Virus record (IMG/VR): IMGVR_UViG_3300029883_000021
Span: 1 to 30,966 of that record
Length of the DNA: 30,966 nt
From: a virus
Direction: 5' to 3' (one strand)
This document shows, one piece after another, positions 21,512 through 30,966 of this stretch. The number at the start of each line of letters is the position of its first letter. Positions within the stretch are counted from its first letter, which is position 1. Under the pieces are notes generated by a model. The model saw only the letters and a program-made list of their open reading frames with translations, searched no databases and was not told the DNA's origin. The position numbers were made by a program, and so were the translations under genes.

Positions 21512-22135
21512 TCAAAAATCAATCTCCGCGTCCTCGTCGCCGATCGCCTCCGCGCGCGGCGCGTCGTAGCCGAGGATGGCTAGGAGGCGCGAGGATGCGC
21601 GGACGGGTGCGCCAGCGTATTGCTCGGCCATGTCGGCTATGTGGGCTTCGCTGGCCCTTACAGCCAATTCCCGCATCTCGCCCTTCATCTTGCGAATGTC
21701 CATCTCGTGCAGCTTATTGCCCGGCTCACCGGACGCCGCGTGAGCGATCAGCACAGCCTGCTTCTGCCGACAGTCCGCGATAAATTCCCTACGCCGGGCT
21801 GCTTCTTCGGGTCCGATATCGCGCGGCTTCTCCTCGGTCGCCTCACGGCGCAGCCGGGCCTGCTGGTCGCGCAACGGCTTCATGCGGCGCTCGCACTCGC
21901 TGCCGATCTCATAGATCGTGGGAAGGAATTGCGACCGGGAAGGAAGTCCGCCTACCGGGTCACAGACGGCCTTGACGATGGGTTCGGGATAACCGCGCAG
22001 CACGGCGACGGCGGCGCGCAAATAGACCTCAGGGTCTTCCGCGTCGCCCCTACGATAGCATCCGAAAAGCACCGTCGCGAACTTCGTCGCCTTCTCGGCG
22101 GAACACGTCGTTGTCAGGATTGTTGTTGAACTCAT
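21512..22135 (-). CDS. Phage replication-region protein (helicase-loader position), 207 aa
   Basis: Residues 14-80 follow a pattern frequent beside phage initiators: KATKFATVLFGCYRRG, DPEVYLRAAVAVLRGYPEPI, AVCDPVGGLPSRSQFLPTIYE. A long charged helical part follows (ERRMKPLRDQQARLRREATE), with a C-terminus ending EDAEIDF. It has no Walker motif, so it is not a DnaC-type ATPase; by position after the initiator it is analogous to lambda P. The 5' end overlaps the initiator gene by 86 bases in another frame. An internal GTG would shorten the overlap, but the conserved pattern begins near residue 17. Confidence 0.55.
   Translation of the reverse strand: MSSTTILTTTCSAEKATKFATVLFGCYRRGDAEDPEVYLRAAVAVLRGYPEPIVKAVCDPVGGLPSRSQFLPTIYEIGSECERRMKPLRDQQARLRREATEEKPRDIGPEEAARRREFIADCRQKQAVLIAHAASGEPGNKLHEMDIRKMKGEMRELAVRASEAHIADMAEQYAGAPVRASSRLLAILGYDAPRAEAIGDEDAEIDF
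21514..21531. repeat. 18-bp direct repeat, proximal copy
   Basis: Exact copy of 21088-21105, 426 bases apart. Here it is coding for the last residues (A-E-I-D-F) of the replication-region protein, followed by TGA rather than TAA. Confidence 0.8.
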
Positions 22136-22742
22136 CGCACAGTCTCCGGGCTACGTCTTGGATCGAGGGCTTGCCGTTGCGCGTGGTCGGCGGGCCGGCG
22201 CGGGCGAATTGGTCAATGTTGCCGACCCATGTTCGCCAAGCAGCGCGCCAATCGGCCATCAGCGAACCTTTGGCGATGTGGTGATCGCGGAATTTCCGCC
22301 ACTCGCGGCGGAAAATTTCTCTCGGCAGGTGGCTGGCGACGACGCAATCCTGATCGTTTGGCTGTTCGGAAGGGGCTATCGGTCGGCGAGCCTTTTGGCG
22401 AGCGGTTTTGATTTTAGGGGTAAGAGACGTAGTCTCTTGGGGTATATTACTTCTAAATTCTTCACCAAGAAGACCGGGCGCGCGTATACGCGAGGGGCTG
22501 TTTTCAGCGTTTTTCAGTAGGTTTTCAGTAGAAGATTCAGCGTTTTTCAGCGCGGATTCAGCGTTTTCAGTAGTTGATTTCAGCGTTTTTAAGCGCGAGT
22601 AAGCGCGCCGGTTCTGCTCCTGACGGGATAGTTTTTCTTTCCGGCAGGCGAGCGCCTCGGTGAAAGCGTCGAGCGCGATCTTTATCGCTTCTGGAGGCGC
22701 GCCTGCCGCGGCGAGGGCTGATGCAAGATCGCCGGGCGTCAT
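22050..22742 (-). CDS. Replication initiator-like protein, 230 aa
   Basis: ATG 22742 overlaps the previous stop (ATGA). Three parts are visible. The N-terminus is helical and then basic (PPEAIKIALDAFTEALACRK, QEQNRRAYSRLK). A low-complexity linker (residues ~50-85) repeats KNAES / ENAES units. The C-terminal domain has REWRKFRDHHIAKGSLMADW and RAAWRTWVGN, a pattern typical of phage replication proteins (F-x-D-H-W ... DW-x-x-A-W-R-x-W). The linker codons are near-identical DNA repeats that look like iterons. By analogy with lambda O it would bind them and open the origin. Biochemical role is inferred. Confidence 0.62.
   Translation of the reverse strand: MTPGDLASALAAAGAPPEAIKIALDAFTEALACRKEKLSRQEQNRRAYSRLKTLKSTTENAESALKNAESSTENLLKNAENSPSRIRAPGLLGEEFRSNIPQETTSLTPKIKTARQKARRPIAPSEQPNDQDCVVASHLPREIFRREWRKFRDHHIAKGSLMADWRAAWRTWVGNIDQFARAGPPTTRNGKPSIQDVARRLCDEFNNNPDNDVFRREGDEVRDGAFRMLS
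22422..22593. other. Candidate replication origin: iterons, AT-rich stretch, palindrome
   Basis: Inside the initiator-like gene lie four repeats of TTCAGCGTTTTTCAG on the plus strand: exact at 22503 and 22536, one base shorter at 22557, and with a changed end at 22579. Start spacings are 33, 21 and 22 bases. Next to them is a clearly AT-rich patch (about 22438-22470: GTATATTACTTCTAAATTC) unlike the surrounding GC-rich sequence, and a palindrome AAGAGAC-GTA-GTCTCTT at 22422-22438. This is the layout of lambda ori within gene O. Confidence 0.5.
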
Positions 22743-30703: not shown

Positions 30704-30966
30704 ATGTTTGATATTGAGAAATATAAAGCAGCGTGCGTTTTTCCGGGTGAGATCGACGACTCTGCCGTGAAAATAGCGCTGGCGGGATATTGCGCCGCGC
30801 TCAAAATCGAGCGCGAGATTGTTAGAATCGAGAGAGGTTGGAAACTATCTGACTATCCTGATCTCCAACGAACGATTGTGGAAATCGCCCGTGCCGCCCG
30901 TGACGCTCGTGACGCTCGTGACGCCCTTGCCGCCAGTGACGCCCGTGCCGCCCGTGACGCGCGTGA
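30704..30966 (+). CDS. Protein with Ala-Arg-Asp repeats, cut by window edge
   Basis: GAGGA upstream of ATG 30704. The first ~60 residues look like a folded region (DIEKYKAACVFPGEIDDSAV, LKIEREIVRIERGWKLSD). From codon 62 the sequence becomes ARAARDARDARDALAAS and similar, continuing past the edge. Such Ala-rich charged repeats should form a long helix. The protein is open at the right end, so its full length is unknown. Confidence 0.6.
   Translation, partial: MFDIEKYKAACVFPGEIDDSAVKIALAGYCAALKIEREIVRIERGWKLSDYPDLQRTIVEIARAARDARDARDALAASDARAARDAR
30887..30966 (+). repeat. Short tandem repeats coding Ala-Arg-Asp
   Basis: Nine-base units (GCY-CGT-GAC) recur, and a 20-base block starting GCCCGTGCCGCC is exactly repeated at 30887 and 30941 (54 bases, 18 codons apart). 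The repeat runs to the window edge and stays in frame, so copy-number changes would keep the reading frame. Confidence 0.7.

Follow-up and report, generated by a model that had tools for sequence, protein, structure and literature searches.

Positions 22406-22588 of the window, by which we mean the whole stretch of 30,966 nucleotides analysed here (a linear IMG/VR record of a soil virus), most probably constitute the phage's own lambda-like replication origin, located inside the gene of its initiator protein. Our comparisons support a lambda-style layout in which residues of the protein's linker are dictated by DNA repeats, and we infer that the region is active as an origin. Read in the direction of the gene, the iterons come first, followed by an AT-rich tract, a dyad and the DnaT-like domain:

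22050-22742, minus strand: initiator gene, an ORF of 230 aa (C-terminal homology, family matches to PHROG 1408/3992, AlphaFold2 model)
22578-22742, minus strand: N-terminal region of the initiator, aa 1-55 (helix 3-12 and the start of helix 17-79 with a basic stretch)
22579-22588, minus strand: iteron AAACGCTGAA, copy 1 in gene order, read ACG CTG AAA (TLK)
22557-22566, minus strand: iteron AAACGCTGAA, copy 2, read AAC GCT GAA (NAE)
22536-22545, minus strand: iteron AAACGCTGAA, copy 3, NAE frame
22503-22512, minus strand: iteron AAACGCTGAA, copy 4, NAE frame
22503-22583, minus strand: array of eight CTGAA units (left ends 22579, 22566, 22557, 22546, 22536, 22524, 22513, 22503)
22406-22465, no strand assigned: AT-rich tract, candidate unwinding element (65% AT, second highest 60-bp window; contains AGTAATATACCCC)
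22422-22438, plus strand: mini-hairpin AAGAGAC-GTA-GTCTCTT with a C(GTA)G loop, an exact 17-bp dyad on the strand opposite the coding one
22188-22355, minus strand: DnaT-like C-terminal domain, aa ~130-185 (homology searches and AlphaFold2)
21512-22135, minus strand: next gene, 207 aa, overlapping the end of the initiator gene (candidate helicase loader from its position and an F-P-T motif)

The preliminary description had reported four near-identical repeats, a local AT-rich stretch and a 17-base dyad, all within an initiator-like gene, and each of these was recovered at the positions listed. Its count of four iterons holds for exact copies of AAACGCTGAA, but these belong to a denser set of eight CTGAA half-units on a lattice of ~11 bp. 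A switch in GC skew, which it had offered as a check, was not clearly visible at the candidate origin.

The initiator begins with a short helical N-terminus carrying a basic region, continues with the repeat-encoded linker and ends with the DnaT-like domain. An AlphaFold2 model based on nine sequences places helices at residues 3-12 and 17-79, the latter long and including the basic region (pLDDT 86-95 for aa 1-50). In the same model the linker is poorly ordered and predicted to be disordered, and the C-terminal domain is helical and confident. We propose that the N-terminal region, with its basic helix, may be the part that binds the iterons. The C-terminal domain (FRDHHIAKGSLMADWRAAWRTW) turned out in tblastn searches to be homologous to phage proteins named 'replication initiation O-like' and 'primosomal protein I'. 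The domain, in which the preliminary description saw a phage replication protein, is DnaT-like and not lambda-O-like. Among nine aligned members with a short N-terminus, five matched PHROG 1408 ('replication initiation protein', best 8e-18) and five matched PHROG 3992 ('primosomal protein', best 1e-18). Pfam DnaT was matched by single family members (best 3e-4) and not by the window protein itself.

The short N-terminal class is common to eight proteins of other loci (L057, L059, L086, L101, L149, L153, L319 and L326). No true relative of the window protein's N-terminus turned up in INPHARED or IMG/VR, nor in a first scan of bacterial genomes. Pfam, PDB sequence and Foldseek searches found no solved relative of the protein or its domain, and lambda O was absent from the INPHARED matches of query P0001 at E 0.01. 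One of the eight, L153, comes from a genome of a Beijerinckiaceae-centred sample; there the initiator is retained together with an adjoining homologue of the next gene (E = 6e-36), the tract after the iterons and a re-paired hairpin. Comparison of the next gene with lambda P by hhalign aligned 19 columns at a probability of 4%, with one short motif in common, and lends no support to homology between the two.

Within the AT-rich tract, AGTAATATACCCC neighbours the hairpin and is conserved in L153; the 100-bp window with the highest AT content is 22499-22598. The dyad is the sole hairpin in the window, on either strand, that combines a stem of at least 6 bp with a C(GNA)G or C(GNNA)G loop. Outward from the loop it pairs C-G, A-T and G-C (the class criterion being at least two G-C pairs beside the loop). 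Loops of the GNA and GNNA types form extraordinarily stable DNA mini-hairpins (PMC4686876). The same form recurs in relatives: on the strand opposite the coding one, stems of 6-10 bp enclose GNA or GNNA loops with a C-G closing pair.

We searched the 260 nt directly preceding the C-terminal domain for such hairpins with perfect stems of at least 6 bp. The expected numbers were taken from a null model in which synonymous codons are shuffled within the gene, so that the protein and its codon usage are preserved. In a first set of 88 genes, 21 carried the hairpin on the non-coding strand (0.57 expected) and none on the coding strand (0.25 expected). This corresponds to 0.278 per kb on the non-coding strand of the initiators, 21-fold over the 0.013 per kb per strand observed in 302 kb of flanking DNA. 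Because the GN(N)A loop rule had come from this first set, fresh loci were used as hold-out samples. The hairpin was present in 2 of 26 genes of a second IMG/VR sample (0.17 expected), in 6 of 18 genome loci of the FRDYW...DW.ATWRNW subfamily (0.12 expected; 4 of 12 when non-redundant) and in 1 of 15 from a small genome sample, a few ORFs of which are doubtful. Taken together, the hold-out samples gave 7 of 53, an enrichment smaller than that of the first set. Gammaproteobacterial relatives had none in 23, which rules out a universal hairpin. Over all non-redundant initiators, the strict rule found 28 of 163 (17%) on the non-coding strand, where about one is expected, and 0 of 163 on the coding strand.

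The hairpins precede the C-terminal domain by 63-170 nt, and their loops are GAA (7), GTTA (6), GATA (3), GCTA (3) and, less often, others. Permitting mismatches gained no genes in set 1 and one in set 2. Stems have also been re-paired between relatives: ATCATCC-GAA-GGATGAT in L059 corresponds to ACAATCC-GAA-GGATTGT in L149, and the stem of the window to GAAAGC-GTA-GCTTTC in L153. The comparison shows a strand-specific hairpin that has been kept in part of the initiator family. The DNA energy model gives the window hairpin -4.2 kcal/mol on both strands and so accounts neither for the strand bias nor for any extra stability.

Three further kinds of hairpin were noted along the way. L429 and L432, whose N-termini are unlike that of the window protein, carry the nearly identical AGAGAC-GAA-GTCTCT, which is translated as a similar TSSL/TTSL peptide (compare 22422-22438 of the window). 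A second recurring loop, C(TTTA)G, was seen on the non-coding strand at a similar place in five cases (L095, L122, L128, L392 and L409). In the related prophage initiators L374, L376 and L380, GCGCCCG is followed by GCAA or GGAA; these GNNA loops have G-C as the closing pair, and the hairpins precede the domain by 162-165 nt.

Lambda itself carries a comparable element. The inverted repeat of gene O (39162-39189), reportedly described in sequence papers of the 1970s, lies after the iterons and just past the AT-rich tract. Its sequence on the non-coding strand is GTCAGAGGATTC-GCCA-GAATTCTCTGAC, with a C(GCCA)G loop and one G-T wobble. The O genes of PhiR26_1 and GF-2, both followed by a P gene, and that of PHB10 (38% identical to lambda O) carry the same element, its loop being C(GCCA)G or C(GTCA)G and its stem altered in part. 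The hairpin is absent from the O-like genes of P22-like phages, Proteus V3, SKA5, 716R3 and Pun_Y3. A scan of IMG/VR with lambda O yielded near-identical copies, which were left out of the statistics.

It is unlikely that the hairpin works as RNA, through mRNA stability, translation or termination, instead of as DNA. Re-paired stems would serve an RNA equally well, and the cases with a GAA loop appear on the mRNA as C(UUCG)G; the remaining mRNA loops, however, are UNC or UNNC, which are not known special RNA loops. In 28 of 28 cases it is the opposite strand that carries GNA or GNNA, the class known for its stability in DNA (PMC4686876). The odd pair of lambda points the same way: the non-coding strand has it as G-T and the coding strand as A-C (-8.5 versus -6.4 kcal/mol when folded as DNA). 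No T-run follows the hairpin in the window.

The second line of evidence comes from the repeats. All four exact copies of AAACGCTGAA lie on the minus strand in the initiator linker, with no further exact copy in the 31 kb; when one mismatch is allowed, the window contains 7 matches against 1.95 expected. The full 15-mer TTCAGCGTTTTTCAG is found at 22503 and 22536 only, whereas the copy at 22557 is one T shorter and that at 22579 has TTAAG. The CTGAA units lie at gene nt 160, 173, 182, 193, 203, 215, 226 and 236, spaced by 13, 9, 11, 10, 12, 11 and 10 bp (range 9-13, mean ~10.9). Five of them fall in the frame NCT GAA and three in the frame CTG AAA. A single DNA word thus encodes different residue pairs in two reading frames (AE/TE and LK).

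The initiator gene contains 35 repeated 9-mer pairs, in comparison with a mean of 2.7 and a maximum of 23 among its synonymous shuffles (0 of 5,000 reached 35). Likewise, none of 1,000 shuffles packed one 5-mer eight times into 95 nt. Since the shuffles never reach the observed repeats, these are not forced by the protein sequence. The two frames and this null model support the earlier proposal that the linker, with its KNAES units, was shaped by the DNA repeats. Among the 200-bp bins of the window, 22401-22600 has the highest density of repeats.

A pattern scan of IMG/VR found the same iterons in the initiator genes of two further contigs only, both from the same virus and 100% and 99.98% identical to the window across the shared stretch; its remaining matches had no relation to this gene. 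No relative combining these iterons with a diverged linker was present in the collections searched, so alignments could be checked only across different iteron types. A scan of IMG/VR for the C-terminal domain supplied 63 non-redundant genes, 37 of which beat the synonymous null (p<=0.01). With loci from bacterial genomes added, this was the case for 40 of 76 initiators and for 3 of 74 neighbouring ORFs of the same loci. Repeat spacings in the related initiators peak at 10-12 and 21-24 bp, the commonest being 22, and 53% of spacings are out of frame, versus 24% in control ORFs.

Phages with different N-termini have different iterons at the same position in the linker. These include five TTCACCG...CGGTGAA in L005, TGTCCCG every ~22 bp in L004, TTCCGCGGAA in L057, CGTCAC about every 10 bp in L101, GGAAAACCAGCA every 23 bp in L011 and TTCACCCCCGAAGCGGC in L016. 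Initiators of the class WVRLW..MP.DPKWR (L063, L090, L103 and L135) have one iteron motif at two places, the N-terminal domain and the linker, and this motif varies from phage to phage. Iterons that change with the N-terminus, as well as duplicate motif sites, are expected if every initiator carries its own binding sites. The comparison shows selection on the iterons at the DNA level.

Other types of repeats were also observed. Ten unrelated viral contigs (L019, L025, L029, L032, L038, L040, L043, L044, L046 and L052) contain short GCTGAAAC-type arrays of 8-bp units (AAACGCTGAAA-GCTGAAACGCTGAAA), mostly outside ORFs and in some cases near a start codon. The linkers of the unrelated initiators L067, L073, L074, L081, L093, L061, L063 and L013 have in common simple tandem repeats with a period of 5-7, encoding LIPDS, NQEP, DTDT or EEKRR peptides. 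These may be either slippage products or unwinding elements.

Repeats of this kind could also be an operator: the initiator, or else a regulator, would bind there and thereby control its own operon, while replication starts elsewhere. Iteron-bound initiators often autoregulate, as is established for iteron plasmids, and an array within a gene that is merely bound would be no proof of an origin. We nevertheless regard this as quite unlikely, given that operators usually lie at promoters and that the position in the linker, the AT-rich tract and hairpin that follow and the lambda-like order suit an origin better.

Very unlikely, in our view, is a purely protein-level or slippage origin of the pattern, in which a disordered linker grew by duplication of KNAES-type units and the similarity of the DNA is a by-product. 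The predicted disorder of the linker and the simple 5-7 bp tandem repeats of many relatives are in keeping with it, yet in-frame duplication would yield neither the 9-13 bp distances nor the two frames, the synonymous null is never reached and control ORFs lack such repeats. Least probable is that another array is the origin, such as the nine-copy tandem array of the 9-bp CGCCCGTGA at 30886-30966, which is the second most repeat-dense bin of the window but a simple 9/18-bp tandem repeat at the right contig end with no initiator gene known beside it.

If 22406-22588 is indeed the origin, its opening might proceed as follows. The N-terminal helices of the initiator would bind the CTGAA units as a phased complex, and supercoiling together with this binding would open the adjoining AT-rich tract. 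The mini-hairpin with its potentially stable GTA loop could then form on the non-coding strand, singling that strand out for priming or for loading of the helicase. On the open DNA, a helicase or primosome would be loaded by the DnaT-like domain together with the protein encoded by the next gene, the hairpin providing orientation.

More broadly, the chances seem to us about even that many in-gene phage origins include, as a functional element, a GNA/GNNA hairpin that always lies on the non-coding strand and between the iterons and the C-terminal domain. Such an element would explain the inverted repeat of lambda and would determine on which strand the helicase is loaded or the first primer made. 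Were it kept by selection in unrelated initiators, phage origins would become easy to find, as a repeat array plus a hairpin in an initiator gene. Strand choice and helicase loading at in-gene origins would then turn into a testable question.

Among known systems, the DnaT-like phage initiators (PHROG 1408 and 3992) have a C-terminal domain homologous to that of the window protein, and many of them have linker repeats; their gammaproteobacterial members, unlike the window, are without the hairpin. Iteron plasmid origins, as described in PMC5043065, likewise place helix-phased direct repeats beside an AT-rich tract, but their repeats lie upstream of the initiator and not within its coding sequence. 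The promoter hairpin of the phage N4 virion RNA polymerase is, like that of the window, small and with a 3-base loop; it contains a sheared G-A pair. It extrudes at physiological supercoiling and acts on one strand, whose hairpin SSB keeps (PMC4496689). The N4 hairpin is a promoter, whereas that of the window is a candidate origin element.

Lambda provides the closest parallel in layout. Its origin is the textbook case and is defined by iterons and an AT-rich tract (PMC5043065, PMC6022878, PMC7466680), yet the inverted repeat is not discussed in the relevant passages of these sources, and the portions of the lambda papers and reviews covered by our search make no use of it. We found no homology to lambda in the sequence of the N-terminus or the iterons, and the C-terminus of the window protein is DnaT-like. 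The lambda iterons are four inverted repeats of 18-19 bp, while those of the window are direct units of ~11 bp, and the loop is GCCA in lambda and the triloop GTA in the window. The two modules are analogous and not one family. The preliminary description held that the lambda-type layout had arisen independently; the layout finds support, but independence does not, because lambda has the same type of hairpin, and shared ancestry and convergence would look alike in these comparisons. Both modules carry a next gene in the position of the loader, as in O/P of lambda, and both have iterons in the linker, then an AT-rich tract, then a C(GN(N)A)G hairpin on the non-coding strand.
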